Assembly: GCA_017938315.1 (NCBI GenBank)
Contig: JAGBBV010000031.1
Coordinates: 61,226-125,225 of the forward strand
Source: Lachnospiraceae bacterium
GTDB taxonomy: Bacteria > Bacillota > Clostridia > Lachnospirales > Lachnospiraceae
DNA: 64,000 nt
Direction of reading: 5' to 3'
In this document: piece by piece, positions 7,543 through 47,110 of the stretch
Position numbering within the stretch: position 1 is the stretch's first letter
Layout: every line of letters starts with the position of its first letter
Notes under the pieces: generated by a model
The model's database searches: none
What the model saw: the letters and a program-made list of their open reading frames with translations, nothing else
What the model was told of the DNA's origin: nothing
Position numbers and translations under genes: made by a program

Positions 7543-8229
7543 ATGAAAAAAATTTATGAAGGTAAAACCAAAGATGTGTACAGCCTTGACAACGGAAACG
7601 TTATGCTGAAGTTTAAAGACGACTGTACAGGAAAAGACGGTGTGTTTGATCCCGGTGAAAACAGCGTAGGTTTAACAATCGAAGGTATCGGAAAAGCTAA
7701 CCTTGAAACATCCATTCACTACTTTGAACTTTTAAAAGCCGCAGGCATCAAAACACATTATGTAAGTGCTGATGTTGAAAATGCTACAATGGAAGTTCTT
7801 CCCGCAACAGTATTTGGACATGGTCTTGAGGTAATCTGCCGCCAGGTTGCAACTGGAAGTTTTATCCGCAGATATGGTGAGTACATAAAGGATGGCACTG
7901 TATTAGAAGGTGGTTATGTAGAATGTACATTTAAGAATGATGCTTTAGGTGATCCCCTTGTAACAGGTGAAGGTCTTGCTGCTCTTGGAATCATGACTCC
8001 TGCTATGTTCGAAAGCATGAAAGAACAGACTTTAAAGATTACCAAAATCGTTTCTGATGATTTAAAATCTATGGGTCTTGATTTATGGGATATCAAATTT
8101 GAATTTGGTTACAACAACGACGAAGTAATTCTCATCGACGAAATCGCTTCCGGTAACATGCGTGTATACAAGGATGGCAAGATTGTTGATCCCGTTGAAT
8201 TAACCAAAATCATTTTAAGCAACGTATAA
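7543..8229 (+). CDS. purC: Phosphoribosylaminoimidazole-succinocarboxamide synthase
   Basis: PurC joins aspartate to CAIR using ATP in the eighth step of IMP synthesis. The 228-residue length is typical of single-domain bacterial PurC. It begins with the family signature (K)[10 protein letters not shown] and has the conserved [17 protein letters not shown] (substrate-binding) and [10 protein letters not shown] / [11 protein letters not shown] segments. A GGAG site lies 8 bases before the ATG. It is divergent from guaA, so the intergenic region could coordinate purine genes, but no other pur gene is adjacent. A terminator follows directly. Confidence 0.97.
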
Positions 8230-8255
8230 AAAGACAAGCTTAATACTTAATATAG

Positions 8256-8290
8256 AAGGACTTTGATGCAATGCACCAAAGTCCTTTTTG
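8256..8290 (+). terminator. purC terminator
   Basis: AAGGACTTTG and CAAAGTCCTT form a perfect 10-base-pair stem followed by TTTTT. It lies 26 bases after the purC stop. Confidence 0.9.
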
Positions 8291-8297
8291 TTTCTTC

Positions 8298-8660
8298 TCA
8301 GTCGATTTTCGACATGTTTATAAATTTATATTTTTCCATGGTTTGCATATATTGCACCAACCGCCCGTAAAGAGGCTCTGCCGCATCGCCAAATCTATTT
8401 TTTACCAAAAGGGCGATATCATAAACACTTCTCTTTCCGTCAATCAACGGCCAAATAAAGTTTCCCATTTCATCTAAATGAATCTGTGAAATCTTCGGTT
8501 TCTTTAACAAAAGTTGTGCCAGACGATTAAATGTACCTGCGTTTTCTACGAAAACAGTAACCTTTCCGTTGGCATCAACTGTGCTTATCAATTTATCATT
8601 GTGCATTGGCACATAATCTAAATAGTTGTCTGCCTTCTCGTTTTTACGTATCTTTGCCAC
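8298..8660 (-). CDS. PqqD-family protein
   Basis: This protein is about 120 residues. Its C-terminal half has the PqqD-fold pattern (GNFIWPLIDGKRSVYDIALLVKNRFG), a peptide-binding winged-helix-like fold that often carries precursor peptides to radical SAM enzymes. I start at GTG 8660 (GTGGCAAAGATACG), which follows GGGGAAAGG and overlaps the OPT gene by 17 bases; an ATG at 8687 lacks a site. No radical SAM enzyme or precursor peptide is nearby, and the coupling is to the OPT transporter. It may be a free-standing peptide-binding partner of the transporter, but that is inference. Confidence 0.8.
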   Translation of the reverse strand: MAKIRKNEKADNYLDYVPMHNDKLISTVDANGKVTVFVENAGTFNRLAQLLLKKPKISQIHLDEMGNFIWPLIDGKRSVYDIALLVKNRFGDAAEPLYGRLVQYMQTMEKYKFINMSKID

Positions 8661-10551
8661 TTGCTTTTCCTTTCCCCTGCATAGCAAATCTCATGATACA
8701 AAATATCATAATGACAAGAAGCACAATACCACCAATAATTCCTGTATTTACAATAGCAGACAAATCAATAACACCAGCCACATTTACCACTGCAAGAATA
8801 GCAAGCAAAATACCCATTAATCCTTCACCGGCAATCAAACCTGAGCAGAATAAAATACCGCTGTTTGCCTCTTTATTTTCTTCTTTTTCCTGATTCTTCT
8901 TATCTGCAAACCACTTGATGATACCCCCAACCATGATTGTGGAACTAAGTTCCATGGGCAGATACAAACCGATAGCCACAGGCAGTACAGGAATTTTTAA
9001 CACTTCAAGTGCGATGGCAATAAACACACCGATTAGCACAAGTGCCCATGGAAGATTCCCTTCCATCACCCCTTCCACAATCATCTTCATCAAGGTGGCC
9101 TGGGGTGCAGAAAGCTCTGCTGTACCATAACCTCCCCATGCCAGGTTAAATAGTACAAGTACACCACCAATTGTGAGGGCGGAAACAACCGCACCAATCA
9201 GTTCACCAATCTGCTGTTTCCTGGGTGTGGCACCAAGAATATAACCTGTCTTTAAATCCTGTGAAGTGTCTCCTGCCATAGCCGCAACAATACAGATAAC
9301 GGAACCAATCGCGATGGCACCGGTCATCCCCTGTATCCCTGCATTTCCTGTTGCTTTCAGTGCAAGAGTCGCAAATAGAAGTGTAGCAATTGCCATACCG
9401 GATACCGGATTATTGCTGCTACCTACAAGACCTACCATTCTGGAGGAAACCGTAGCAAAAAAGAAACCAAATATAACTACAAACAGTGCTCCCGGGAAAG
9501 TTACGGGAATCTGAGGGAGAAGCCAGATAGCTACAACCATCAACGCTATCCCGGTCATAATCGCTTTCATGTCCATGTCCTGTGCGGTACGAAAGTTATT
9601 CCTTTTTCCCTCTCCCTTCATTCCTTTTATGGCATCTATGAAGGTTGACACAATCAGTGGCAAAGATTTTACCAGACTGATAATACCACCTGCTGCAACC
9701 GCGCCGGCGCCAATATATCTGATGTAACTGCTCCAGACGGCACTTGCTCCGCCGATTGCATACATATTTGCAATGGTATCCGTTCCCGGGTACAGCACAG
9801 TATCACTACCAAAAGTAATGATTGCAGGAATGAGTACAAACCATCCGATTAATCCCCCTGCAAACAAGTAAGAAGAAATCTTAGGACCACAAATATACCC
9901 CACACCTAAAAGTGCAGGGTAAACTTCTACAGAAAATTCTGTCTTTAATCCTTTTATGGGTGCGGTAATTACGCCGGGAACCACCTTTAGTCCATCTACC
10001 ACAAATTTAAATGCTGCTGCCAGTCCCATTCCCACAAACACACTCTTTGCCCCGGCTCCTCCTTCTTCCCCTGCAAGTAACACTTTTGCGCAAGCAGTCC
10101 CTTCAGGGTAAGGCAAGATACCATGTTCTTTCACAATTAAAGCTTTGCGTAGAGGGACCATAAACAGTACACCCAAAACACCTCCGCAAAGAGAAATCAG
10201 GGCAATGGTCAGAAGGCTAGGCGTTTCTGTCACACCATCTTTTGCCCACAAAAATAATACCGGCAAAGTGAAAATAGCACCTGCTGCCAAGGACTCACCT
10301 GCCGAACCAATGGTCTGAACAATATTACTTTCCAGTATGGAATCCTTTTTCATGATCACGCGAATCACACCCATGGAAATAACCGCCGCCGGAATGGATG
10401 CTGAAACCGTCATCCCCACTCTAAGCCCCAGATAGGCATTGGCTGCGCCGAAAATAATTGCCAAAAGAATTCCCATTATTACCGATGTAGCCGTAAGCTC
10501 CGACGTAATCTTATCCGCCGGAACATACGGCTTAAATTCTTCCTTTTTCAT
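8644..10551 (-). CDS. OPT-family oligopeptide transporter
   Basis: This 635-residue protein has about 14-16 hydrophobic segments and many GA-rich, proline-containing helices. It opens with a short charged head and the family-typical ...NAYLGLRVGMTVSASIPAAV segment. Internal sequences such as LPYPEGTACAKVLLAGEEGG, a proline/acid loop after the third helix, and NPVSGMAIATLL are diagnostic of bacterial OPT proteins. These are proton-coupled importers of oligopeptides, amino-acid conjugates or metal chelates across the membrane. It is likely cotranslated with the PqqD-like gene. The substrate cannot be told from the sequence. Confidence 0.95.
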   Translation of the reverse strand: MKKEEFKPYVPADKITSELTATSVIMGILLAIIFGAANAYLGLRVGMTVSASIPAAVISMGVIRVIMKKDSILESNIVQTIGSAGESLAAGAIFTLPVLFLWAKDGVTETPSLLTIALISLCGGVLGVLFMVPLRKALIVKEHGILPYPEGTACAKVLLAGEEGGAGAKSVFVGMGLAAAFKFVVDGLKVVPGVITAPIKGLKTEFSVEVYPALLGVGYICGPKISSYLFAGGLIGWFVLIPAIITFGSDTVLYPGTDTIANMYAIGGASAVWSSYIRYIGAGAVAAGGIISLVKSLPLIVSTFIDAIKGMKGEGKRNNFRTAQDMDMKAIMTGIALMVVAIWLLPQIPVTFPGALFVVIFGFFFATVSSRMVGLVGSSNNPVSGMAIATLLFATLALKATGNAGIQGMTGAIAIGSVICIVAAMAGDTSQDLKTGYILGATPRKQQIGELIGAVVSALTIGGVLVLFNLAWGGYGTAELSAPQATLMKMIVEGVMEGNLPWALVLIGVFIAIALEVLKIPVLPVAIGLYLPMELSSTIMVGGIIKWFADKKNQEKEENKEANSGILFCSGLIAGEGLMGILLAILAVVNVAGVIDLSAIVNTGIIGGIVLLVIMIFCIMRFAMQGKGKASGKDT

Positions 10552-10633
10552 TTAACACCTCTTCATACATTATTATCTTTACCAACATATCATGATTATA
10601 TAAATATATGAAGTGGTTATATTTTCCTGTCTG

Positions 10634-13306
10634 CTACATACTGTAATAAGCTACACCAATTGTCTGCATTCCCGAATTGCATGCAACAGTAAATGAGGCT
10701 TTTTGCATAATTACCCGCTTAAACGGAATACATTTTAGCACTTCTCTTTTAATGAGTTCCTGTTGTTTTACGCTACAGCCCACATATGTGATAAATACCA
10801 CATCTTTGTTAATTTTTCTTTTCTTTCGCAGGTGATGACGTATCCCTTTTTTCCATGCACTTTCCACGCTTCCTCCAAGGAGGCCGCTTACCACTGCATT
10901 TTTATGACGCATGGTAACATATGGATGAAGTTCCAACATATTACACAATTTCGCCACCGCGGAATTTGTACGTCCATTCCGATAAAAAATATCTGCCCCC
11001 GGCATAACAATAGCTGTCTGCACATGACTATGCATCTTATTTACGGCGTCAATAATTTCTTCAACACTCTTGTTTTCTGTTGCCAGCCTTGCTGCATGCA
11101 AGGTAATGAGTCCCTGTCCACAGGATATCTGTGCAGAATCAACTACATGCACATGTCCAAAGCCTTTTGCCGCCGCTACCGCAATACCATAGCTCTTTCC
11201 GGCCCTGGAGCCTAGTGAAATATGGATAACACTTTCTGCTTCTGTCAGTGCCTCGGCAAAAAATTCTTCAAATTCTTCTACGGTAACACTATCCGGAGTT
11301 GCACTGCTTGTCTCTGTAGACATGTATTGTTCCAAACTGTCAGAATCAATTTCACGGGTATCTGCAAACCGGCCGTAGGGCGTTTTAATATAAAGATACA
11401 TTACTTTAATATCATATTTTTCCAATAACTCTGCAGGAATATCACAAGCACAATCTGAGGTGATATATATTTTTTTACGTCTTTTCTTTGCAATTTTTTG
11501 TATTTGCCCCAAACGCTGTGCCTCTGTAATATTCTGCTTTTGATATTCAATAATCTCTGCCGGCAAAAAGCGAAGAATCTCAAGTTCCATCACTTTTCCT
11601 TGAATGGGTTTCCCTACATAGCCGTCAAAGCCCTGCTCTTCATATACCTGCCTTGCATTCGCAATTGTATTTCCGGTCAGTGCAATGACTGCAGATTCAC
11701 GACACAAACCATTTTCCTGACTGCGTATTTCCTGTAGCGTCATACGGCCATTCATACCGGGCATCATGTCGTCAAGCAAAATGACATGATAAAATTTCTT
11801 TTTTGCCATTTCCAGACACTCTGCTCCGTTTTTTGCAATGTCAACCTGAACTTTCGTTGCCTCCAACAATTTCTTCGCAATCATGGAATTCATATCATTA
11901 TCATCCACCACGAGCACTCTTGCCTGAGGAGCTTCAAAATCCGGTTCATAAATTTGTCCTTCTTCCATTTTTCTATCCAGCGGACTCATTACACCTACCG
12001 GCTTCACATTTGAAATCTTTTGTTTTACGCTTATGGTAAAAATGGTACCTTTCTTATAAATACTGTCAATTTTAATTTCTCCGTCCATTAAGCCAAGTAA
12101 CTGCTTGACAATGGAAAGTCCCAAACCACTTCCCATAATCCCGGCATTTTTCTTTTCATCTATCCGGTTAAAGGAATCATATATATTTTCCATATCTTCT
12201 TTGCGGATACCCATGCCCGTATCCGCAACTTTGATTTTCAGCGTAACTTCATCGCCGTTGCTTTCCTCTCCTTGTACACTTAGTGTAACAGAACCTTCCT
12301 CCGTATATTTCACGGCATTGTCCAGAAGATTGAGCAGAATTTGCCGGATTCTTTTTTCATCACCGAAAAGTTCCGAAGGCAATCCGGGATCAATATCCAG
12401 CTTAAAATCCAACTTCTTTTTTTCCATTTGTACCCAAATTAGGTCTGTCAAATCCTCGACCAATGTCTTGAGTTTATATTTTACGGGTACAATGTGCATC
12501 TTATCCATTTCCATCTGGGATAAATCCAAAATGTCATTTACCTGATTAAGTAGCAACTTGCTTGCAAGCTGAATATCCAATGCATATTCCCTTGTTTCTC
12601 CGCCGGGATTGGCACGCATAATCATCTCGTTAAGCCCCATGATTGCATTAATTGGTGTTCTGATTTCGTGGCTCATATTGGCAAAGAACACATTTTTTGA
12701 ATCTCTATTTCTTTCCAGTTCTTCTTTTTGTGCAACATTTGTTTTATGTTCTTCTTCATAAATTCTCATATGCACCTGCAGTATCAATCCACAAATCATA
12801 CTTGCCATAACAACTGACAAAAAGGAATCCCAAAAAACAGCTTCTTTTGATGCAAGTGGTGTTATATACTCCGGATAGCAATATGCCATATGATATAATA
12901 ACGCACTCATGCCAAGTGAAAAGCATAAATGAACGAATAAATTTTTCCCTTTAAACATAAGAAAGCCGTATAAAACGATAATCACCAGCCACATGGGAGC
13001 TCCTCCCTCAATACCACCGCCGGAAAAGAACATCAGTGGCATAATGACTGTCATAATGAGAAAATCAAGAATTGCAGCTGCCAAATAATAGCGTTTATGT
13101 TTGAAGGTTAAATACCAGACAATTCCTATTGCTGCCAGAAATAGTATCATCACCGGCAATAGTTTAATTCCGGATTCCATAATCATAAAATTTTCTATAA
13201 TTGTTAAAAGGGTTGCAAATCCGCCCACAATGATAATGATCCGGAACATTCTTTCCCTCAGTTCACAGTCTTTTCCTGTGATAAACTGAATTATCTTTTT
13301 ACCCAT
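10634..13306 (-). CDS. Hybrid histidine kinase fused to a DegV lipid-binding domain
   Basis: This 890-residue protein has, in order, about six membrane segments (20-180), a dimerisation/phosphoacceptor domain with MSHEIRTPIN (His 213), an ATPase domain (N box NLLDNAVKY about 326-334, DTGMGI and GSGLGLSIV), a receiver (about 462-580, LLDDMMPGMNG with Asp 513) and a C-terminal DegV/EDD domain (about 612-890: YITSDCACDIPAELLEKY, then SLGSRAGKSYG). DegV proteins (FakB group) bind fatty acids for phosphorylation by FakA. Fusion to a kinase suggests lipid-responsive signalling. It lies 3 bases after the other hybrid kinase, so the two are cotranslated. Confidence 0.93.
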   Translation of the reverse strand: MGKKIIQFITGKDCELRERMFRIIIIVGGFATLLTIIENFMIMESGIKLLPVMILFLAAIGIVWYLTFKHKRYYLAAAILDFLIMTVIMPLMFFSGGGIEGGAPMWLVIIVLYGFLMFKGKNLFVHLCFSLGMSALLYHMAYCYPEYITPLASKEAVFWDSFLSVVMASMICGLILQVHMRIYEEEHKTNVAQKEELERNRDSKNVFFANMSHEIRTPINAIMGLNEMIMRANPGGETREYALDIQLASKLLLNQVNDILDLSQMEMDKMHIVPVKYKLKTLVEDLTDLIWVQMEKKKLDFKLDIDPGLPSELFGDEKRIRQILLNLLDNAVKYTEEGSVTLSVQGEESNGDEVTLKIKVADTGMGIRKEDMENIYDSFNRIDEKKNAGIMGSGLGLSIVKQLLGLMDGEIKIDSIYKKGTIFTISVKQKISNVKPVGVMSPLDRKMEEGQIYEPDFEAPQARVLVVDDNDMNSMIAKKLLEATKVQVDIAKNGAECLEMAKKKFYHVILLDDMMPGMNGRMTLQEIRSQENGLCRESAVIALTGNTIANARQVYEEQGFDGYVGKPIQGKVMELEILRFLPAEIIEYQKQNITEAQRLGQIQKIAKKRRKKIYITSDCACDIPAELLEKYDIKVMYLYIKTPYGRFADTREIDSDSLEQYMSTETSSATPDSVTVEEFEEFFAEALTEAESVIHISLGSRAGKSYGIAVAAAKGFGHVHVVDSAQISCGQGLITLHAARLATENKSVEEIIDAVNKMHSHVQTAIVMPGADIFYRNGRTNSAVAKLCNMLELHPYVTMRHKNAVVSGLLGGSVESAWKKGIRHHLRKKRKINKDVVFITYVGCSVKQQELIKREVLKCIPFKRVIMQKASFTVACNSGMQTIGVAYYSM

Positions 13307-13309
13307 AGG

Positions 13310-16093
13310 CTATTTCTCCTCACCTGCAAGTTTCTTTCGTATTCTTGATACCAGTTCTACCGCTGCCATGTAATCACACATTTCCACTTTTCTATAAGCA
13401 TCTGCCAATCGGCCCCTTAACGATGTGCCATGATATTGATACTCCTGCAGCGTTTCAATCACTTCCGCCAATCTCTGACCATCCAACGCATACACCGCGT
13501 TTTCCATTTCTTCCAGTTTTTTCTTAAATTCATCATCCGTAAGGTCGGGCATTACTGTTATATCTGCTACTGCTTCACTTTCTTTCTCCTGTTCTGTCTG
13601 CAGCTCCTCATCAGACAACAGAAGCCGACACAGTTTTTCTAACACATCTTCATACTTTTCTACAAAAGGACCGTGATTTTTCTCTATAAACTCCCAATTG
13701 CCTTCACGTCCGGCAAGTTCCAGTTGTTTTGCAAGTTCTGATGTCTTTAATGCACCGATACTGTACATGGCGCTCTTGATGCCATGAACCTCTATCACAT
13801 AGCTATTCCAATCCTGTTGCTCATGCAGCCTGTCAACTTTTAGCCCACTCTTTTTATAGTCTTTGCAATACTCAGTAAGCACTCTGATGTATTGTTCTTT
13901 CCCGTTGCAGTATAGGATTCCTTTTACCACATCAAAGCCTAAATCCATAAGTGCTTTTTCCACATCTTCATTTTCCTTGCCATCTTTCTCCAGATTTTCT
14001 GCATAAGTGGTACTTTCCTGCTCTTTTACATAAACTATTTTTTCAGCCGGGAGATTTCTTTTCAGAACTCTTTCAAGCACCGATCTCTCCACCGGTTTCT
14101 CCAGAAAATCGTCAAATCCTTCCGACAATAATGTTTCCCTTGTTCCTGCTACGGCATTTGCTGTCAGGACCACAATTGGCACATTTTGGAAGTAGGTTCC
14201 GACCTTTGTCCGGATCTGATGAAGAGTTTCCACTCCGTCCATTTCCGGCATCATGTGATCCATGAACACAAAATCATAGTCAGCCGTCATAATTTTCTCT
14301 AATGCTTCCTTACCGCTTTCCGCAGTAGTAACCTCAATACCATACCAATTAAGCAGCCCTTCTATCACTCTTATATTTGTATGATTATCATCAACCACCA
14401 ATACACGGGCATTCTTTACCATAAACTTTTCGCCCATTTTTCTTCTTCTGTCTTTTCCGCTGCTTTCCAGGTTGTTGATAACTGAAAGAATTGTCAAAAT
14501 ATAGAACGGCTTATACACCTTTAATAATTGCGGATTCGTAACATATTTTTCATCGTAATCGTCAAGCACAACAATCACATTGGTCTCATTTGCCAATTCG
14601 TCGAAATATTCTTTTCCTTCCTTATATTCCACCACGCTGATAAATACATGGGAAAACTTTTCTTTTTCCTCTCTTCTTTGCAATTCCTGTAAATTACGGC
14701 AGATCTGACATTTTGCCTTCAGCTGTTCCACCATGTGTATGATATTGTCGGTATATTCATCTCGAATTGCCATCATGTCAAACTGTTCCATGTCAATATA
14801 TGTGGCAACATTAATATTTTCTTTGTTTTGAATAGACGCAATAGGTGTTTCATCGAGCACCTTCTGAGGAACTACAAACTTGATTGCACTTCCTTTGCCC
14901 GGTTTACTTTTTACTGTAATTGCACCTCCCATTTTTTGCACCAAGGCATGGGAAATTGCAAGCCCCAAACCAACGCCGCCTTCATGACGGTTTCTCTTTG
15001 CATCCGCCTGATTAAAACTCACGAACATTTTTTCAAGGCTCTGTTCGTTCATTCCAATACCGGTATCCTTAACCGTGACTGCCAGGTTAATACCGTAAGT
15101 TTCTTTTCTATAGCCAATTTCCAGGGAAACACAGCCTTCTTCCGTAAACTTTATGGCATTATCCACCAAGTTCATGATAACTCTTCTAAGTTTCTTTTCA
15201 TCTCCCAAAAGGCCACTGGGCATATTGGCATCACAGTCTACAATCAGCTCAATTTTCTTATCTTTTTTTCTGGACATTGCCACATTTATGACATCATTAA
15301 TTGTAGATGCAATATTATAAGCTTCTTCTTCCAATTCTATCTTTCCGGATTGTAGTTCAGAAAAGTCTAAAATATCACTGACTACCATCATTAGGTCATG
15401 TCCGGAGCGTTCAATATCTTTTATTTTTTCTGTCACATTCTCCGGCAATTCTTCCCTAAGTACCAGTTCGCTCATGCCACATATCGTATTAATAGGTGTT
15501 CTGATTTCATGACTGACGTTTGCCAGAAAATCATTTTTACTTTCCTCTGCCATTTCCAGTTCTTCAACTGCTGCTACCAGCCTGTTGCTGCCATCATTGT
15601 TCCGTTTCGTCCAAATGTACATAATGTATTCAAGCAAAATGACATTGCCGCTTTGCAGAAGTATACTCATAACATCATTTGCACTCTCAGAAGCAAACGC
15701 AAATAAGGAAAATGTATGGTATCCCAAAATCAAGATAAAAGAAACCGTGGTTATAAAAATGATTTCTTGGATACCATATAGCCCAAGCAAGATAATAAAC
15801 GTCGCAAAAACAGCATATACCTGTGCCAGACTTTCTGTATTCACCGCATAAATCACCACACTTATTTGCATCAAAACAGAGGATATTTTTACCCTAAAAG
15901 AATACGTATTTACGCCGGCTAAATGTATAAGCCAGTCCGTCATCACTAAAAACAGCAATAGAAAGTTAATCAATCCGGCTTTTTCATGATTTGCAAAAAA
16001 CAGCATCATTCCGACACTGTACATAGTATAAATAATCAGCAAAAACCTTTCTATTTTTCTTTGGTTATTGGCATTATAAGTCACTTTATCCAA
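13310..16093 (-). CDS. Hybrid histidine kinase with receiver and Hpt domains
   Basis: This 927-residue protein has five or six membrane segments (15-165), a phosphoacceptor domain with VSHEIRTPIN (His 195), a full ATPase domain (NLVDNAIKF, DTGIGM, GLGLAISHAL), a degenerate receiver-like segment (about 430-545) and a true receiver (VLVVDDNHTN, FMDHMMPEMDG). The C-terminal helical part carries VHGIKSAMYSIGA, an Hpt phosphotransfer site. A full His-Asp-His relay is therefore present on one chain. The start is TTG, 8 bases after GGAGG. The gene follows the chemotaxis block but is separated from it by a strong hairpin terminator. No DNA-binding output is adjacent, so signals may leave through the neighbouring receivers. 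Confidence 0.93.
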   Translation of the reverse strand: MDKVTYNANNQRKIERFLLIIYTMYSVGMMLFFANHEKAGLINFLLLFLVMTDWLIHLAGVNTYSFRVKISSVLMQISVVIYAVNTESLAQVYAVFATFIILLGLYGIQEIIFITTVSFILILGYHTFSLFAFASESANDVMSILLQSGNVILLEYIMYIWTKRNNDGSNRLVAAVEELEMAEESKNDFLANVSHEIRTPINTICGMSELVLREELPENVTEKIKDIERSGHDLMMVVSDILDFSELQSGKIELEEEAYNIASTINDVINVAMSRKKDKKIELIVDCDANMPSGLLGDEKKLRRVIMNLVDNAIKFTEEGCVSLEIGYRKETYGINLAVTVKDTGIGMNEQSLEKMFVSFNQADAKRNRHEGGVGLGLAISHALVQKMGGAITVKSKPGKGSAIKFVVPQKVLDETPIASIQNKENINVATYIDMEQFDMMAIRDEYTDNIIHMVEQLKAKCQICRNLQELQRREEKEKFSHVFISVVEYKEGKEYFDELANETNVIVVLDDYDEKYVTNPQLLKVYKPFYILTILSVINNLESSGKDRRRKMGEKFMVKNARVLVVDDNHTNIRVIEGLLNWYGIEVTTAESGKEALEKIMTADYDFVFMDHMMPEMDGVETLHQIRTKVGTYFQNVPIVVLTANAVAGTRETLLSEGFDDFLEKPVERSVLERVLKRNLPAEKIVYVKEQESTTYAENLEKDGKENEDVEKALMDLGFDVVKGILYCNGKEQYIRVLTEYCKDYKKSGLKVDRLHEQQDWNSYVIEVHGIKSAMYSIGALKTSELAKQLELAGREGNWEFIEKNHGPFVEKYEDVLEKLCRLLLSDEELQTEQEKESEAVADITVMPDLTDDEFKKKLEEMENAVYALDGQRLAEVIETLQEYQYHGTSLRGRLADAYRKVEMCDYMAAVELVSRIRKKLAGEEK

Positions 16094-16217: not shown

Positions 16218-17564
16218 TTAATATTTTCCAAAACTATCATTTAAAGAAATAATCTGTTCATTTTTATCAGATGTAAAATCATATTCCTGTTCAACATTTC
16301 CTGCATCTAAAGCCATGCCTTTTAGCTTATAAATTGCAAGCATGTCACGGACCCTACTTGCCTGGGACGACATTTCCATACTTGCCGCTGCACATTCTTC
16401 ACTTGTTGCAGAATTATTCTGTACTACCTGGGATACCTGTGCAATTGCCTGGTCAATCTGGGAAATGGCTGCCGCCTGATAATTGGATGCTTCTGCAATA
16501 TCCGTAATCATACGTTCACTCTTGGCTACCGCTGTTGTAATTTCACCAAGTGCCTGTGCAGTTCCGTTTGCAATCTTGGAGCCTGCTTCCACTTTGCGGA
16601 TGGAATCTTCAATCATTTCTGCTGTTTCTGCCGCCGCGGAGGAACTCTTTGCCGCCAGATTTCTTACCTCCTCTGCAACTACTGCAAAGCCTTTTCCTGC
16701 ATCTCCTGCTCTTGCTGCTTCTACAGCTGCATTGAGTGCTAATATATTTGTCTGGAATGCAATGTCATCAATCACTTTAATAATTTTAGAAATGCTCTCG
16801 GATGCTTTATTAATCTCTTCCATGGCAACCACCATTTCCTGCATTTCCACATTGCCTTTTTTCACGTCTTCAATTGCCTGTGCCACCAGCTGTGCTGCCG
16901 CATTGGCCTGGTTTGCGTTTTCTCTTGTTTTTTCTGCCACATCTGCAATAGATGCTGTAATCTCTTCAATGGCACTTGCCTGTTCTGTAGAGCCTTGTGC
17001 CAAAGCTTCGCTGGCTGCCGCTACCTGGGAAGAATTTGCAGTCACTTTATATGCTGCATCTTTGATGTTGCCCAAAGAATGCTGTGTCTGTGCCACCATC
17101 TTTTGAAGTGCAAATCCCATCACGTCTTCATCTGATTTAGGTGTTACTTCCACCATCATATTGCCGTTTGCAACTTCCTGTGCTACCTGTGCATTTTCCT
17201 TTGTATTATCAATTACCTTTTGAAAGCTGTCAATTAATGCACCAAACTCATCGTTTCCTCTTTTTTTCATCTTCAGGTCAACCTTGCCCTGGGCCAAATC
17301 ATCTGCTGCTTTCATAAGGTCTGCCATGGATTTTTTGATATTAATTACCACCACCGATACAATACCGCCGATAGAAATCTGCATTGCGATAAACTCAATC
17401 GCAGTAAAGGTGGCAAAACTGCTTAAATAGGATACCGGATCATCTACCGTAACGATTGTCTGTGCTGTTCTATATCCCAAAAACAATGATAAAACTAATA
17501 GGAAATCTACAACGATAAAGCTAATACATAATTTAGTAACCATTTTAATATTTTTCGCATTCAT
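16218..17564 (-). CDS. Methyl-accepting chemotaxis protein without a large sensor domain
   Basis: This 448-residue protein has two membrane helices (about 9-30 and 52-76) separated by only about 20 residues, then HAMP (about 75-130) and a long signalling coiled coil. The conserved hairpin tip is present ([21 protein letters not shown]). Glu/Gln-rich heptads on both sides are candidate methylation sites for CheR and CheB. It has no extracellular ligand pocket, so it probably senses through its membrane part or through partners. It lies 5 bases after cheW, within the che operon. It ends in a soluble tail, with no CheR-tethering pentapeptide visible. Confidence 0.95.
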
Positions 17565-17569
17565 AATGA

Positions 17570-18067
17570 TCAGTCTCCTTCTTCCAAAGTCTCTTCACTC
17601 ATCTGCTCAAGAACGGATAAGTCTTCATCTTTTATTAATTTGTCAGGATCAAGAAGTAGTTTTACATCTTCCCCCACTTTACCGATACCATAGACATATT
17701 TATTTTGGGTTCTTTCCTCTTTTGTTAAGCTTGGCGGAGCAACAATGTCACCTTCCTCAATCTCAACCACTTCAGCAATTCTCTCAACAATGAGTCCAAC
17801 CACCGTATCCTTTACGTTAATGATAATAATACAGGTTCTGTCCGTGTATTCGAGAGGTTCCTGCTTGAATCTGATTCTCACATCAATGACAGGAATAATT
17901 TTACCCCGAAGGTTAATAAGTCCTTTTATGTAATCCTCGCTTTCAGGCATCTGAGTAATTTCCTGATATACAATAATTTCATTTACATATTCTATCTTCA
18001 GTCCAAAATACTCATTTCCCGATTTGAAGGTTACATATTTATTCAGCTGTGTAGTCATCTCACTCAT
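17570..18067 (-). CDS. cheW: Chemotaxis coupling protein CheW
   Basis: CheW bridges the chemoreceptor tip and CheA. This product has about 165 residues when started at ATG 18067 ([14 protein letters not shown]), which follows GGAAAGGG; an in-frame ATG at 18097 would overlap cheA and lacks a good site. The core ([40 protein letters not shown]) is textbook CheW with the conserved NLRGxxxPVxDxR loop. The C-terminus is a short acidic extension. It lies between cheA and the receptor gene in the same operon. Confidence 0.96.
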
Positions 18068-18089
18068 ATGTACCCTTTCCTTTCCGTTT

Positions 18090-20246
18090 TTATTCAATTA
18101 ATCCGATTGCATCCAAAATCAGGGCAATACTTCCATCGCCAAGTTGTGTGCACCCTGATAATCCTTTTACCTTCTTTATGTAATCAGGAATGGGCTTTAC
18201 AACGATTTCCTGTTTACCAACAAGGCTGTCTACAAGCAGACATATGGTTTTCTTTTCAACGGTAACCATTACAAGCATTCCTTCTTCCTCTGCGCAGGCT
18301 CCGGGAACCTGATAGCGCTCGGCAACTCTTAAAACAGGATATGCTTCTCCGCGGATCATCACAAACTCTTCACCGGTGGGTTCCTTAACAATTCTGTGCT
18401 CACGCATTCCTACAAATTCATTGACAGAATTGGTTGGTATTACAAAGGAAGACTTTCCAACCTTCATAACGATACCGTCTATAATGGAAAGAGTAAGGGG
18501 AATTTTAAGGTTCATAATACTGCCCTGGCCGGGAGTACTTTCAATTACCAAGGAACCGCCGATTGCCTGAATGTTGGAAACCACAACATCCATTCCCACG
18601 CCTCTTCCGGAATATTCCGTAACCTGTTCATTAGTAGAAAATCCGGGAAGGGTGATAAACTGGTACACCTCACTGTCGGTGTATTCTTCATCAGTCTTAC
18701 CATTATCCAAAAGTCCCTGTTTTCTGGCTTTTGCTAATATCTTTTCACGGTCAAGACCTTTTCCGTTATCCTGCACACCGATGATTACTTTTCCGGACTC
18801 CGTCTTTGCCCAAAGAGTAACCTTTCCCTTTTCTGTCTTGCCTTTTGCCGCTCTCTCATCCGGCATCTCAATACCATGGTCAACAGAGTTTCTAACCAGA
18901 TGCATAAGGGGATCTGAAATATGCTCTATGATATTTTTATCTACTTCCGTTTGTTCCCCAATCATCTCAAATTCTATATCTTTCCCAAGTTTTCTGGATA
19001 CATCAAACACAATCCGGTTCATTTTTTGGAAAGTGTTCTGAAGAGGAACCATTCTCATGCTCATGATTACATTCTGGAGGTCAGTGGATATCTTACTGAG
19101 CTGTGCCGCTGCTTTATTAAAGTTATCAAGTTTCAGTCCCGGCACCTTTAAATCCGAATTCTGCAGTACAACAGATTCTGAGATGACAAGTTCTCCAATC
19201 AAATCCATGAGCATGTCCATCTTATGTACATCCACACTGATTAAAGCAGCCTTTTCCGCCTTCTTGGCTTTATCCTTTACCAGTTTCTTTCCTTTACCGG
19301 GTTCTTTGGTTTGAATAACGAAATCACCGGGTGCCATTTTCTTTTCCGGTGCTTTTTCTCCCGATACCTGCTCACCCGCCGCTTTATCGGCATCTGCTTT
19401 TGCTTCAATATCTTCTACAGACGAATCCAAGTCAATTCTGATTTCGGCTCCAAAACTGTCAAAACCTCTCTGGAAATCTGCGGCAGTGCATTCATAAATT
19501 TCTACTTTTTTAAGTTCGTAGCCTTCCTGGACGATATCTCTCAGTTTTTCTTCTGATGCCTGCGTCTGCAAAAGAATTTTAAAACCGTTCTCTAAGATTT
19601 CATCTGCACTTTTTTCGTCCGCAATAATATCTTCCGGGAAGTGTAACAAATCTTCTGCCACTTCCTTTAATGCGTAAACAGCTTTGTATGCATGGACATT
19701 TGCCAACGGAATATCTGCCTGATAAGTCAGATACAATTTATAAAAGTGACTGGCACTGGTGGCCATGGGAGCAATGTAAAAATGTTGCGGTTCTTCGTAT
19801 ACATTTTCCTTTGCTTTAGCGGCCTGCTTTCCGTCTTCCTCTTTGATTCTCTTAAGAAATTCATCGAGAAGTGTCAAATAATCACCGGCACTTCCATCTG
19901 CCGGATCGCCGTTTTGTATCTTAATCATTTCACTGGAAATAAAATCTACTACCTGCAGAACGTGTTCCACTAATTCTAAATGGGGTACATTGGTAGGTTT
20001 TGATTCCCTGAGGAAGAAAAATACATCCTCCAGTTTGTGAGATATTTTTGTTATCTCATCAAACATCATTACCCCTGAAGAACCTTTTATGGTATGCATG
20101 GCACGAAAGATTTCATTGATTGCATCCTCATCAAAGCATTCCTCATCCTTCTGTTCCAATACAATTTCCTGAAGACGTTCCAGCAGCTGTCCGTTTTCAA
20201 ACAGGTAGACATCCAGCATCCCCTGTGTATTAAACTCTTCTGCCAT
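18090..20246 (-). CDS. cheA: Chemotaxis histidine kinase CheA
   Basis: This 718-residue protein has an N-terminal Hpt domain with AMHTIKGSSG (His 51), an intermediate region with a CheY/CheB-docking-like fold (about 150-260), a charged linker, dimerisation helices (about 340-400), an ATPase domain (HLVRNSVDHGIE, DNGKGLD, GRGVGMDVV) and a C-terminal CheW-like domain. All catalytic boxes are present, so autophosphorylation and transfer to the adjacent receivers are expected. It shares the operon with cheW, cheB, cheR and a receiver. cheC, cheD and cheV are absent here, unlike the classic Bacillus set. Confidence 0.97.
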   Translation of the reverse strand: MAEEFNTQGMLDVYLFENGQLLERLQEIVLEQKDEECFDEDAINEIFRAMHTIKGSSGVMMFDEITKISHKLEDVFFFLRESKPTNVPHLELVEHVLQVVDFISSEMIKIQNGDPADGSAGDYLTLLDEFLKRIKEEDGKQAAKAKENVYEEPQHFYIAPMATSASHFYKLYLTYQADIPLANVHAYKAVYALKEVAEDLLHFPEDIIADEKSADEILENGFKILLQTQASEEKLRDIVQEGYELKKVEIYECTAADFQRGFDSFGAEIRIDLDSSVEDIEAKADADKAAGEQVSGEKAPEKKMAPGDFVIQTKEPGKGKKLVKDKAKKAEKAALISVDVHKMDMLMDLIGELVISESVVLQNSDLKVPGLKLDNFNKAAAQLSKISTDLQNVIMSMRMVPLQNTFQKMNRIVFDVSRKLGKDIEFEMIGEQTEVDKNIIEHISDPLMHLVRNSVDHGIEMPDERAAKGKTEKGKVTLWAKTESGKVIIGVQDNGKGLDREKILAKARKQGLLDNGKTDEEYTDSEVYQFITLPGFSTNEQVTEYSGRGVGMDVVVSNIQAIGGSLVIESTPGQGSIMNLKIPLTLSIIDGIVMKVGKSSFVIPTNSVNEFVGMREHRIVKEPTGEEFVMIRGEAYPVLRVAERYQVPGACAEEEGMLVMVTVEKKTICLLVDSLVGKQEIVVKPIPDYIKKVKGLSGCTQLGDGSIALILDAIGLIE

Positions 20247-20259
20247 TTAGCTCTCCTTT

Positions 20260-20652
20260 CTATATCAAGCCAAATTTCTTAAGTACCTGTTCGAATTTGT
20301 CCTGATCTATGGGCTTGCCGGAATATACCGTACATCCCAGTTCAAATGCCATCTTTACATTCTTTTCATCATTTAATGCAGTGGTCATAATCACCTTTGC
20401 TGCCTTTTCCTTGGGAATTTCTCTCTCTTTTTCCAGATTACGGATTCCCACAAGCGCCTGATAACCGTCCATGACCGGCATCATAATATCTAAACATACC
20501 AAATCATACGGGTCATCATCCTCCAGTGCCATCATAAAGGCATCTATAGCCTCCATACCGTCCACAGTTACGTCACACTCACCATACTTTGACAAAAAGT
20601 TTGTCATAAATTTTCTGGTAACAAAATCATCCTCCGCTAATAATATTTTCAT
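20260..20652 (-). CDS. Single-domain receiver (CheY-like)
   Basis: This stand-alone receiver has about 130 residues: acidic pocket AEDD at 5-8, phosphoacceptor Asp in CLDIMMPVMDG, switch Thr in MTTAL and conserved Lys in YSGKP. I start at ATG 20652 (MKILLAEDD) after GGGAGACGAT; the upstream ATG 20676 overlaps cheB and gives an unlikely KGGKGDD leader. It lies between cheB and cheA, so it is probably the CheA output. It has no effector domain. It may act on a motor or on other kinases rather than on flagella, because no flagellar genes are seen. Confidence 0.93.
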   Translation of the reverse strand: MKILLAEDDFVTRKFMTNFLSKYGECDVTVDGMEAIDAFMMALEDDDPYDLVCLDIMMPVMDGYQALVGIRNLEKEREIPKEKAAKVIMTTALNDEKNVKMAFELGCTVYSGKPIDQDKFEQVLKKFGLI

Positions 20653-20672
20653 ATCGTCTCCCTTTCCGCCTT

Positions 20673-21701
20673 TCACATTTTACTAAGTAAGGAATACGTC
20701 CTCTTAGCAATTTCCGGCAATTTTTCCTGATATTCTACCGCTCCTATTTCATATGCCACCTTTGGCATTCCATATACAATACAAGTGGATTCATCCTGGC
20801 CTATGGTCCTTGCTCCGGCCTTTTTCATTTCCAGAAGTCCTTTGGCTCCGTCTCCTCCCATTCCCGTCAGAATGATTCCCACAGCGTTATTCTTTACTAC
20901 CTCTGCAACCGATTGAAACAGCACATCAACGGAAGGGCAATGCCCGTTTACTTTAGGTCCCTTTTTTATCACTACCTGAAAATTTCCGTTTACTTTCACA
21001 AGTTGCATATGTGCATCCCCACCCGGTGCAATTAACACCTGCCCCGGCAGTACCACATCTCCGGTTTTTGCTTCTTTCACCCTGACCTTACACATATTAT
21101 CAAGTCTCTGTGCATACATTTCCGTAAATTTGGGTGGCATGTGCTGTACAATTACTACCCCAGGTATATCCGTGTCAAATTCCTTTAGCACCGTAGCAAT
21201 TGCTTCTGTACCTCCCGTTGAGGCACCTATTGCAACCACCAAATTTTTGTTTGCTACTTTTTCGTTGTGCACCGGTGACTGTATTACCGTTTTTTTCTTT
21301 GCACTCACCTTGGCAACTGATGCTACTTTTACCTTTTCTATCAGTTCGTTTTTCACGAAATCTTCTATTTGTATGCCACTGGCACCTACCGGCTTTGCCA
21401 CAAAATCTACAGCCCCTGCATTTAGTGCATCAAAAACCTTGCTGCTTAGAGAACTGATTACGATAACCGGAAGGGGATGTTGGGGCATCAATTTCCGTAA
21501 AAATTCTATCCCGTTCATCTTGGGGAGTTCTACATCCAATGTCATTACATCCGGCCGATGTGCAATGATTGCATCTCTCGCTTCAAAGGGATCCTTTGCT
21601 GTAGCCACCACTTCAATCTCCTGGTCCGCGCTTAATCCCCTCACTAAAATTTCCCGGAAGAGTAAAGAATCTTCTACTACCAATACCCGTATCCGTCGCA
21701 T
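20673..21701 (-). CDS. cheB: Chemotaxis methylesterase CheB
   Basis: CheB removes methyl groups from chemoreceptors and can deamidate Gln. The N-terminal receiver (VLVVEDSLLFRE, TLDVELPKMNG) is followed by a linker and the esterase domain with GASTGG (nucleophile Ser), QHMPPKFT (His) and GMGGDGAKG (Asp). That is a full triad. I start at ATG 21701, 5 bases past GGAGATGAA; a longer frame from 21743 would overlap cheR and lacks support. It sits 14 bases after cheR and just before the receiver gene. The length, about 342 residues, is standard. Confidence 0.97.
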   Translation of the reverse strand: MRRIRVLVVEDSLLFREILVRGLSADQEIEVVATAKDPFEARDAIIAHRPDVMTLDVELPKMNGIEFLRKLMPQHPLPVIVISSLSSKVFDALNAGAVDFVAKPVGASGIQIEDFVKNELIEKVKVASVAKVSAKKKTVIQSPVHNEKVANKNLVVAIGASTGGTEAIATVLKEFDTDIPGVVIVQHMPPKFTEMYAQRLDNMCKVRVKEAKTGDVVLPGQVLIAPGGDAHMQLVKVNGNFQVVIKKGPKVNGHCPSVDVLFQSVAEVVKNNAVGIILTGMGGDGAKGLLEMKKAGARTIGQDESTCIVYGMPKVAYEIGAVEYQEKLPEIAKRTYSLLSKM

Positions 21702-21715
21702 ATATTCATCTCCTT

Positions 21716-22522
21716 TTACTTTTTCCGGAAAACAGACGGACAAATCAGTTCAAGTGGCAGAGCTCCTCTGTCTATGGTTTCCGTTCTTCCCACAAACAAA
21801 TATCCACCGGGTTCCATCACGTCATATATCTTCTGTATTAATTCACGTTTTGTATCTTTATCAAAATAAATCATGACATTCCGCAAGAAAATAATATGCA
21901 TTTTTCTTTTAAACGGAAATGTATCCATGAGATTAAATTGTCTGAATAATATCTGTTCTTTGATTTCCGGATTCATCTCATACCGCACTCCGTCTTCCAC
22001 AAGGTGCATATACTGATGTTTCCAATGGGGCAGTAAATCTGTTACCTGCTCCCGTTCATAGATTCCTTTCGCAGCATATTGTAATGCTTTTGTTGACACA
22101 TCCGTTGCCAAAACTTTTGTATCCCACGGCTTTTCTTCAAAACAAAAGAAATCACGAAGTAGCATCGCCAACATGTAAGGTTCCTGCCCGGTAGATGCTG
22201 CACCGCACCAAATACACAAATCACGTTTTTTCTCTTCTTTTTTCTTAAGTTCGGGAAGTACCACCTGCTTTAAAAAATCAAAGTGTTCAAACTCTCTCAT
22301 GAAAAAGGTATGATTGGTGGTTAAGATATCTACCAGTTGCTTTTCTTTTGCACCTGTAATATCCGATTCCACGGCGTCCATGTATTCAGTGTAACTGCCA
22401 TACCCGTTTGCACGTAAAAAATTTTCCAGTCTTCCCTGTATCATTTCCTTCTTGCGCTCTAAATCAATACCATAACGGCCTTTCACAAATTGATAGATGC
22501 GACGGAATTCTCCCTCAGTCAT
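21716..22522 (-). CDS. cheR: Chemotaxis methyltransferase CheR
   Basis: This 268-residue CheR transfers methyl groups from S-adenosylmethionine to receptor glutamates. The N-terminal helical domain is followed by the methyltransferase fold with WCGAASTGQEPYMLAM, a variant of the WSAGCSTGEEPYSLAM cofactor loop. NVMIYFD and GYLFVGRTE match the C-terminal conserved strands. It is cotranscribed with the RpfG-like gene upstream and cheB downstream. There is no C-terminal TPR domain. An intact CheR/CheB pair implies that the adjacent receptor adapts. Confidence 0.97.
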   Translation of the reverse strand: MTEGEFRRIYQFVKGRYGIDLERKKEMIQGRLENFLRANGYGSYTEYMDAVESDITGAKEKQLVDILTTNHTFFMREFEHFDFLKQVVLPELKKKEEKKRDLCIWCGAASTGQEPYMLAMLLRDFFCFEEKPWDTKVLATDVSTKALQYAAKGIYEREQVTDLLPHWKHQYMHLVEDGVRYEMNPEIKEQILFRQFNLMDTFPFKRKMHIIFLRNVMIYFDKDTKRELIQKIYDVMEPGGYLFVGRTETIDRGALPLELICPSVFRKK

Positions 22523-22549: not shown

Positions 22550-23626
22550 CTAGTGGAACTGCCTGGTAATCTTTTTCATAATCCAGAAAATATCCGGATT
22601 AAATCGTTTAACAGCATCTTTTTCCATGATATCAAGAGCTTCTTCTCTGCTGAAAGCATCACGGTATGTACGCACTTCCGTCAAAGCACAATAAGTATTT
22701 ACAACGGATACAATCTGTGCCGATAAAGGAATTTCATTTCCTTTCTTTCCCTCCGGATAACCGCTTCCGTCCCAGTTCTCATGATGGAAATACGCAATTT
22801 CCATTGCCATGTGGATAAAATCGTTGTCACTGCTACCGCCTTCTTCTATATCTCTCAAAATCTTAGCTCCGATAGTAGTGTGGGTACGCATTATTTTCCG
22901 TTCTTCCTGGGTAAGACGACCTTTTTTCTGCAAAATATCCGTAGGAATTGCCATATTTCCCAAATCACAGAGAGGGGTTGCAAGTTCAATCGTATCTACA
23001 TAACTGTCAGAAATAACAGCCCCATAGTTGGCTGATAACTGCATTGCTTCTGCCAGAATACGACAATTATACCTAAGGCGTTCCATATGTCTTTCATCAT
23101 AACGTGCATTTTCACGTGCTACACGGATCAACGCATAAAGCACATTCCTACGCTCTTTTTCCATCTGCTTAATCTGCTCACTGATAGATACTTGAAGCTG
23201 TCTGTTCATTTCCGCCATGCTGTGATTAGCCTCGTGAAGTTTCAAGTGCATACCGACTCTGGCCTTTACTACTTCATGTATAAAAGGTTTTGTAATATAG
23301 TCTTCTCCACCTACGGAAAATCCTTTTACAATATCCTGAGGATCGTCAAATGCTGAAATAAAAATAATGGGAATATCTCTGGTAAGGGGATCTTCTTTTA
23401 TTTTTTCGCAGACCTCATAACCATCCATCTCCGGCATCGCTATATCTAAGATAATCAGCTCCGGCTCCATATGTGGAATCATTTTTAATGCCTGGGCACC
23501 ATTTTCCGTAAGTATTGGCTGACAATCCATTTCTCTGATAATGTCGCGAAGCACAAAGCGGTTTGCCTCCACATCATCAACAATTAAAATTCGGGGAATG
23601 TCCCTATTAAATTTACCCCCTGTCAT
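22550..23626 (-). CDS. Receiver plus degenerate HD-GYP protein (RpfG-like)
   Basis: This protein has about 358 residues: an N-terminal receiver (ILIVDDVEANR, ILDIAMPEMDG, Lys in ITKPF), a helical linker (about 135-185) and an HD-GYP domain. HHENWDGSGYP is intact, but the expected LHDIGK reads LCDLGN and the later ADxYDALT reads VNTYCALT. The defining His-Asp pair and a metal-binding Asp are therefore lost, and c-di-GMP hydrolysis is doubtful. It may act as a c-di-GMP-binding or protein-interaction module. The start at 23626 follows GGAGG by 7 bases. It lies between the PAS kinase and cheR. Confidence 0.92.
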   Translation of the reverse strand: MTGGKFNRDIPRILIVDDVEANRFVLRDIIREMDCQPILTENGAQALKMIPHMEPELIILDIAMPEMDGYEVCEKIKEDPLTRDIPIIFISAFDDPQDIVKGFSVGGEDYITKPFIHEVVKARVGMHLKLHEANHSMAEMNRQLQVSISEQIKQMEKERRNVLYALIRVARENARYDERHMERLRYNCRILAEAMQLSANYGAVISDSYVDTIELATPLCDLGNMAIPTDILQKKGRLTQEERKIMRTHTTIGAKILRDIEEGGSSDNDFIHMAMEIAYFHHENWDGSGYPEGKKGNEIPLSAQIVSVVNTYCALTEVRTYRDAFSREEALDIMEKDAVKRFNPDIFWIMKKITRQFH

Positions 23627-23651
23627 GTAGCACCTCCATGTTACATGCTCA

Positions 23652-25115
23652 TTAAACCATCTTCTGTAATAGTTCAAAAGCTGCTGTTGCCTTTTCGTAG
23701 TCTCCCTTTTGTACTGCCATTTTAAGTCTCAGTGCATGACTCTTTACTTCTCTTGGTGCTTCCTCCACCAACTGTTTTACTGTCTCTGCAAACATCTCTG
23801 CCTTTTCCCAATTCTCCATTTCCAGACAAAGAATAAGCTTTGACATTTTCTTTTCTATCTCTTCTTTATTTTCAGGTTCGCCGTATTTCCATATCTTCTC
23901 ACCGGCACTATTTACCGACATGCTTTGCAATTTACCTAACATATCTTTTTCTATAAATTCTGCAGTATACTCTTTTCCGGCATCCTCCTCTGCATAGGCT
24001 TTATCTTCCTCTGCAATTTCAGCCCAAATGTCAAAAGTAAAGATTGTTCCTTTTCCCACCGTACTTTCCACATGGATATTTCCACCCATCAGTTCAATGA
24101 GCTGTTTACATATATTAAGTCCAAGTCCTGTGCCGCCATATCTTCTGGAAATGGAAGCATCTACCTGATAAAAGCTTTGAAACAGCTTATCCTGTGCTGC
24201 CTTGTCAATTCCAATTCCGGTGTCAATCACCATAAAAAATAGTTGAATCCGGTTTCCTGTCTGGGCAGTTTTAACCACTTCCACATGAATCTCACCGACC
24301 GCAGTAAACTTGTAAGCATTTGAGATAAGGTTATTTAATATCTGGACTATCCGGAGTTCATCGCCGACAATATATTCAGGAATACTATTTGGTACCGTGA
24401 TGGAAAATTCAAGTCCTTTCTCTATGATCCGGTTGATATGGTTAGACTTTACATAGTCAATCATATTCCGGAATTGGAATCTCCTCGGTTCCAAAACAAA
24501 TTTTCCCGCTTCCAATTTGGAAAAGTCCAAGATGTTATTAATAATGGAATGCATATCTCTGCACCCACGTTCAACCAGATGAAGAAGCCGTAGTTTTTCT
24601 TCATCCTCTTCTTTATTAATGAGCGCCTGCGCATTTCCCAAGATTCCATTTACCGGTGTCCTGAGTTCATGGGTCACATTTGCAACAAACTCCGACTTCA
24701 CCTTTTGGGCCACTTCCGCTTCCTGTCCAACCTGGCTTACCTTTTTCTCTAAAAAATTTTCATTTGAAACGTCATAAGCCGTACATATGTATCTATCTTC
24801 TTCACCTAATTTTCCTTCCGGATCTTCATATTTAAGAAGCCGTATTTTGGTAGGAAAACAGGTTCTGTTTTTGCGGTATGCCATGATATTATGGGATTCC
24901 CCACCAATTTCGCATTCAATAGCAAGACCGCCTCCCTCTACTGAAAACTCGCCGGGAAAAATTTCCGTAATGGACTGGCCGCACAATTCATCCTGATATT
25001 CAAGTTTTTTCATCGCTGCTTGATTTGCATATACAATTTCACCACTTTGGTTAAATATGATTACAATTCCAAGCACATTATCTAAAGTAAACTGAAATAA
25101 ACTTTTCGATTGCAT
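23652..25115 (-). CDS. PAS-domain histidine kinase
   Basis: This 487-residue soluble kinase has a PAS domain (about 5-115), a coiled linker, a phosphoacceptor domain with VTHELRTPVN, an ATPase domain (NLISNAYKF, DTGIGI, GGTGLGLNICKQL) and a C-terminal helical extension of about 100 residues that resembles a degenerate Hpt without an obvious HxxKG site. It has no membrane segment and no receiver. It is the first gene of the chemosensory operon, directly behind a sigma-A promoter, with a GGAGGAAAGT ribosome site. It most likely feeds the receiver/HD-GYP protein 25 bases downstream. Confidence 0.93.
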   Translation of the reverse strand: MQSKSLFQFTLDNVLGIVIIFNQSGEIVYANQAAMKKLEYQDELCGQSITEIFPGEFSVEGGGLAIECEIGGESHNIMAYRKNRTCFPTKIRLLKYEDPEGKLGEEDRYICTAYDVSNENFLEKKVSQVGQEAEVAQKVKSEFVANVTHELRTPVNGILGNAQALINKEEDEEKLRLLHLVERGCRDMHSIINNILDFSKLEAGKFVLEPRRFQFRNMIDYVKSNHINRIIEKGLEFSITVPNSIPEYIVGDELRIVQILNNLISNAYKFTAVGEIHVEVVKTAQTGNRIQLFFMVIDTGIGIDKAAQDKLFQSFYQVDASISRRYGGTGLGLNICKQLIELMGGNIHVESTVGKGTIFTFDIWAEIAEEDKAYAEEDAGKEYTAEFIEKDMLGKLQSMSVNSAGEKIWKYGEPENKEEIEKKMSKLILCLEMENWEKAEMFAETVKQLVEEAPREVKSHALRLKMAVQKGDYEKATAAFELLQKMV

Positions 25116-47048: not shown

Positions 47049-47110
47049 GTTCCCCTCTCCCACCATCTTACAAGTATGTGTCTATTATATAACGTTTCTT
47101 CATAAAATAA

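Follow-up and report, generated by a model that had tools for sequence, protein, structure and literature searches.

The stretch of DNA analyzed here (the window) comprises 64,000 nt of contig JAGBBV010000031.1 from the Lachnospiraceae bacterium assembly GCA_017938315.1. At positions 10634–13306, on the minus strand, it encodes a hybrid histidine kinase-receiver-DegV fusion of 890 aa. The protein combines an ordinary hybrid kinase core, with intact catalytic residues, and an unusual, repurposed C-terminal domain, and its gene is part of a conserved module. The C-terminal domain has the predicted fold of the fatty acid carrier FakB; the residue for docking to the fatty acid kinase FakA and most residues that hold the carboxylate are lost from it, and it is under purifying selection. 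The gene is paired with that of a second hybrid kinase, and an Hpt domain is distributed between the two in a complementary way. From this we favor a reading that, taken as a whole, has about an even chance of being correct: a FakB-type domain repurposed as a sensing module in a phosphorelay of two kinases and one Hpt.

Domain architecture and catalytic residues

The open reading frame (ORF) begins with ATG at position 13306 and reads down to 10634. A first-pass annotation of the window, made from the sequence alone, had described a membrane hybrid kinase with a complete core and receiver and a full-length C-terminal DegV domain, and both Pfam and hydropathy agree. Its coordinates were exact, but the minus strand was left unstated.

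The N-terminal membrane region (residues 1–185, positions 12752–13306) has six hydrophobic segments in a Kyte-Doolittle scan (23–41, 49–67, 75–93, about 99–125, 123–141 and 162–180). No Pfam family is above the cut-off in this region in the window protein or in the members of alignment A4. The HisKA domain follows (residues 204–266, positions 12509–12697, Pfam E 1.3e-15), with phospho-acceptor His213, and then HATPase_c (residues 315–429, positions 12020–12364, E 4.9e-25), with Asn330, Asp362, Gly364, Gly366 and Gly392/394/396. The receiver (Response_reg, residues 464–571, positions 11594–11917, E 5.5e-19) has Asp469, the phospho-site Asp512, Thr544 and Lys566. The protein thus has the HisKA histidine, N-box, G-boxes and receiver Asp and Lys of a hybrid histidine kinase. 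All 82 fused proteins compared have His213, Asn330, Asp362, the G-box glycines, Asp469, Asp512 and Lys566. Asn326 is found in 81 of the 82, as is Asp468, and position 544 is Thr in 80 and Ser in the other two.

A linker (residues 583–611, positions 11474–11560) joins the receiver to the DegV domain (residues 612–888, positions 10643–11473, E 4.2e-37). It is 25–33 residues long in the 82 proteins, with a median of 28. The DegV domain covers Pfam profile positions 1–278 of 280. Its predicted structure is the whole, conserved two-lobed FakB fold, and the modeled DegV/EDD fold spans the full domain length. A truncated DegV is rejected, as both the full Pfam profile and the full structure model are covered. 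Every one of the 25 members of alignment A4 has all four Pfam domains. Among the 25 of 134 families listed, the only NCBIfam model above the cut-off is TIGR00762 (DegV domain), with no equivalog. Mean pairwise identity among fused proteins is 28% in the membrane region, 39% in DegV and 58% in the kinase.

Residues of the FakB site

FakB1 of Staphylococcus aureus and other FakB/DegV proteins are free carriers, whereas the DegV here is the C-terminal domain of a kinase. Five FakB1 positions were compared (Thr62, Ser95, Arg173, Arg205 and His270), with numbering and roles as given in a portion of PMC8892158. According to passages of PMC8892158 and PMC9136124, Arg205 is key both for binding FakA and for the encounter with the membrane, and a passage of PMC9136124 describes Arg173 as needed for the Fak reaction. 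Ser171 was excluded, since this position is Gly in 21 of 24 standalone DegVs. The counts refer to 85 fused domains, after removal of 5 duplicate rows from 90; window residue numbers at these positions were counted by hand from the alignment.

Compared with FakB, the fused domains lack the FakA-docking Arg205 and the network residue His270, and that of the window also lacks Thr62 and Ser95. The window has Pro671 at the position of Thr62, Gly703 at Ser95, Gly811 at Arg205 and Asn877 at His270; Arg173, present as Arg779, is the only one of the five that is kept. The Thr62-Ser95-His270 carboxylate network is therefore absent from the window (Pro, Gly, Asn), and relatives retain part of it. The fused domains keep from 0 to 3 of the five residues. 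Arg205 is missing in 83 of 85, the window included, and is kept in the other 2 and in 22 of 22 standalone DegVs. There is an Arg one column before position 205 in 14 fused rows, so an alignment shift could mask a few retained Arg205 residues.

The first-pass annotation had proposed that a bound fatty acid tunes the phosphorelay or that the relay controls lipid handling. Under the second proposal the relay would control a carrier, with receiver phosphorylation gating how fatty acid is passed on to FakA. A fakA gene, which the annotation had advised looking for, does lie at another place in this 2.63-Mb assembly, and Arg173 is retained by the domain of the window and by 41 of 85 fused domains. 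However, the near-complete loss of the FakA-docking arginine, universal in the standalone proteins compared, and the eight standalone DegV genes of the same genome make control of a carrier very unlikely. A fused DegV that works with FakA as a FakB is rejected on the loss of Arg205. The earlier interpretation therefore holds for the architecture and for fakA, but not for lipid handling by the relay through FakA. The lipid pocket residues, on which it had been made to depend, are in part missing: four are lost in the window and Arg173 is kept. Judged from these residues, it is possible that a bound fatty acid tunes the relay through a rebuilt head-group site.

Distribution and origin of the fused DegV

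Matches in which kinase or receiver continues into DegV occur at no fewer than 85 places in at least 69 of 397 genomes of the family, that of the window included; both counts are lower bounds, with 2–3 matches scored per genome. An in-frame TAG is present at one of these places (G342), and some others are partial. A chance or misannotated fusion is rejected on this recurrence. Of 295 genomes sampled across the order, 48 belong to the family, and 10 of these have the fused frame. Outside the family it occurs in one genome (G621) of 231–247, a range that reflects 16 unmatched genomes not individually assigned. The fused DegV of G621 clusters inside the family's sequences in the DegV tree, which makes transfer or mis-binning possible. 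The 27 related loci in named genomes are nearly all from Lachnospiraceae, Roseburia or Acetatifactor metagenome-assembled genomes, many of herbivore-gut origin. A contig labelled Candidatus Gastranaerophilales (L147) has a fused gene that clusters tightly with Acetatifactor sequences; the contig is probably mis-binned.

A tree of 108 DegV domains, in which bootstraps are not fully settled, places 84 fused domains and the standalone DegVs of loci L041 and L097 in one clade with support 100/99. L133, near-identical to L132, is omitted from the tree and retained in the residue counts. Two further items were left out: L153, whose match contains a stop, and a 41-aa fragment in L097. The first-pass annotation had named breakage of the fusion in close relatives as a result that would tell against it; the relatives do not show this, these two being the only standalone members of the clade. 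L097 is encoded apart from its kinase and is an apparent split of a fused gene. L041 is from the window's own genome and is basal, sister to all fused domains. It directly follows HK-REC-Hpt and REC-HD-GYP genes (histidine kinase, HK; receiver, REC), keeps three of the five FakB residues, Arg205 not among them, and has Asn at a replaced position. Its sister position is what one would expect had DegV entered the relay first and been fused later; a standalone state that arose by early fission is also possible. The L041 module is at positions 3462–11683 of contig C7 of this genome, in the order GGDEF-EAL, isochorismatase-like, REC-HD-GYP, HK-REC-Hpt, standalone fused-clade DegV and ApbA-like reductase. 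Standalone DegVs of the nearest outgroup (L114, L119 and L124) have the FakB-type His and Arg, and adjoin ordinary two-component pairs or are a few genes from them.

The loss of most FakB residues in the window might point to a neutral fusion, or to a decaying domain without function. The fused domains, however, form a single clade with a near-constant linker in 82 proteins, are present in full open frames in many genera, and have a low omega (purifying selection, with dS near saturation), so that decay is extremely improbable.

The two-kinase module and its Hpt

The gene directly upstream encodes a partner hybrid kinase, HK1 (HisKA-HATPase_c-REC and a C-terminal Hpt-like region; positions 13310–16093, minus strand, TTG start in the ORF list). 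It ends 3 bases ahead of the fusion start. The Hpt-like region has the His motif VHGIKSAMYSIG and scores 20.2 bits with Pfam Hpt, below the cut-off of 24.6. The first-pass annotation noticed the fusion protein but missed this partner and the chemotaxis operon beyond it.

A hybrid-kinase ORF on the same strand is directly upstream of 59 of the 63 fused ORFs in fetched relatives, one of the 59 being another fused copy (L081). The spacing is mostly within tens of bases, or the ORFs overlap. As for the remaining four, L076 and L127 look interrupted, with partner pieces nearby, and L082 and L083 are close to contig ends. Locus L081 has two tandem HK-REC-DegV genes behind one Hpt kinase (positions 7751–13137).

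In 51 of 63 cases the partner combines kinase and receiver with an Hpt, three of these partners being C-terminal pieces (L084, 305 aa; L100, 270 aa, at a contig start; L123, 438 aa). In 5 of 63 the Hpt is instead found after DegV in the fused protein (L092, L094, L098, L125 and L126), and the partner lacks it in all five. In L086 it is an ORF of its own beside the kinase pair (Pfam 25.3 bits). The Hpt thus switches protein, but a module usually has a single Hpt, an arrangement that points to one relay fed by both kinases. In a quick tree of kinase cores, 63 of 64 fused kinases form a set that includes the split L097 kinase and is separate from a set of 58–59 partner-type kinases. This separation implies that the pair is old.

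The pairing also bears on a different role for DegV. The domain may now bind no lipid and serve in docking or dimerization, for example to hold the fused kinase beside HK1 or the Hpt. The nearly constant pairing and the replaced carboxylate network of the window are consistent with this, as is the Hpt directly after DegV in some relatives, which locates DegV where phosphotransfer partners meet. But the complete two-lobed FakB fold is conserved, seemingly more than docking needs, and the polar site is partly retained in many relatives. Pure docking is a real contender, though we regard it as rather unlikely.

A proposed sensing role

A sensor fits better than a cargo carrier, as the FakB-type fold is kept and the FakA contact is lost. 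We infer the ligand, signaling direction, phosphate route and output as follows. The fusion and HK1 would be two membrane hybrid kinases that share one Hpt in a single phosphorelay. The C-terminal domain would derive from a FakB-type fatty acid carrier that lost its FakA-docking residue and most carboxylate-holding residues, and would now be a cytoplasmic sensing module. Its ligand, taken from the inner leaflet, may be acyl-chain-like or some other hydrophobic compound borne by the membrane. Ligand occupancy or lid movement would be transmitted via the short linker of near-constant length and would alter phosphate handling by the adjoining receiver and kinase. Phosphate would then pass via the shared Hpt to a receiver output, in many relatives REC or REC-HD-GYP, and in the window probably a chemotaxis branch or a non-catalytic HD-GYP.

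Several observations weigh against this. Position 62 is Ser or Thr in 55 of 85 fused domains and position 95 is Ser in 37 of 85; with such partial retention of hydroxyls the chemistry of the pocket varies within the family, perhaps by clade. With four of five FakB positions replaced in the window, the domain may have no hold on a carboxylate. Another candidate input is the six-segment membrane region, which at 28% identity evolves fastest. The signal may enter by this region, with DegV as a secondary regulator, e.g., in feedback from membrane lipid state. The region is present in the fused proteins and evolves as sensor regions often do, and RpfC senses a fatty acid signal by an N-terminal membrane input region, according to a passage of PMC5391125. 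This would leave unexplained why the loss of FakB residues coincides with entry into the module. The L041 DegV, moreover, adjoins a membrane hybrid kinase unfused, which implies that DegV matters to the module by itself. Input through the membrane region is therefore improbable, and the sensing module is preferred.

If the sensing reading holds, it would provide a direct molecular link from lipid state to phosphorelay in Lachnospiraceae. It would also be a second case, with DhaK/DhaQ as the first, in which a regulator arose from the subunit of a two-part kinase that binds the ligand. Each evolutionary step is testable in the series that leads from standalone FakB-like DegV, through a standalone DegV next to a relay kinase (L041) and the fused DegV, to DegV with an Hpt behind it. 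Many hybrid kinases annotated only as "DegV family" would gain names and expectations.

Comparison with known systems

DhaQ of Lactococcus lactis is a paralogue of DhaK that has become a co-activator of the Dha kinase operon, acting with the transcription factor DhaS. The predicted DegV fold is related to that of DhaQ (structures PDB 2iu4 and 2iu6). Unlike the DegV of the fusion, DhaQ is not known to act in a phosphorelay, has a different ligand and is not fused to a kinase. It may be a precedent for the fusion, in which the FakA-docking Arg is lost and the domain is placed in a regulatory protein. Other hybrid kinases with a C-terminal receiver are alike in core and receiver, and the DegV output or sensor domain sets the fusion apart from them.

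SaeS, to our knowledge, has no DegV domain. In S. aureus the level of free fatty acid affects the SaeRS two-component system, according to part of PMC5539427; with fatty acid kinase the effect is indirect, through the fatty acid pool, unlike that proposed for a fused DegV. The RpfC-RpfG system of Xanthomonas, which answers to a fatty acid (diffusible signal factor, DSF), consists of a membrane HK-REC-Hpt and a REC-HD-GYP response regulator, as described in a portion of PMC5391125. This layout is matched by HK1 and the neighboring HD-GYP protein, a likeness of layout and not proof of a shared signal. RpfC is without a DegV domain and without a second fused kinase.

The first-pass annotation knew of kinase-DegV annotations with no described function, and in the open-licence PubMed Central literature no paper on such a fusion, functional or otherwise, was found. 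In passages of PMC12688256 DegV is only a neighboring gene.

Upstream receiver and chemotaxis genes

A receiver protein, REC alone or REC-HD-GYP, is encoded within the next two upstream ORFs in 33 of 63 cases (35 were flagged, less L076 and L127, where the flag came from a kinase piece). In the window, chemotaxis genes precede the kinase pair, all on the minus strand and assigned by Pfam: a methyl-accepting chemotaxis protein (HAMP, MCPsignal; 16218–17564), CheW (17570–18097), CheA (Hpt, P2, H-kinase_dim, HATPase_c, CheW; 18090–20246), a single receiver-domain, CheY-like protein (20260–20676), CheB (20673–21743) and CheR (21716–22522). Beyond them, on the same strand, are the receiver-HD-GYP protein (22550–23677) and a 487-aa PAS-histidine kinase (23652–25115). 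Chemotaxis genes also precede the pair in nine fetched loci (L043–L047, L050, L052, L054 and L061). The window's genome has two CheA matches, flagellin and 21 GGDEF matches.

The HD-GYP protein of the window has LCDLGN in place of the usual LHDxGK, and so lacks the HD histidine of RpfG-type catalytic proteins; its GYP motif HHENWDGSGYP is intact. The HD motif is kept in 19 of 23 HD-GYP proteins and lost in the window, L044, L046 and L058. Going by these motifs, HD-GYP may have become an output that is no longer catalytic in modules linked to chemotaxis genes. In L058, despite the loss of the HD motif, no che operon is seen in the fetched stretch.

A further account, which we hold at somewhat below even, is that FakB-type carriers were recruited into the relay as a lipid sensor that was then wired to the chemotaxis operon in a herbivore-gut lineage. 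If so, the cell may steer, or set cyclic di-GMP (c-di-GMP), by its own membrane state; gut lipids, such as fatty acids and other amphiphiles, would be an alternative cue.

Two other genes of the window are of separate interest. A 773-aa protein at 44745–47066 has HisKA_7TM as its sole Pfam match and no kinase domain. A PqqD-like protein is encoded at 8298–8687, directly after an OPT oligopeptide transporter gene.
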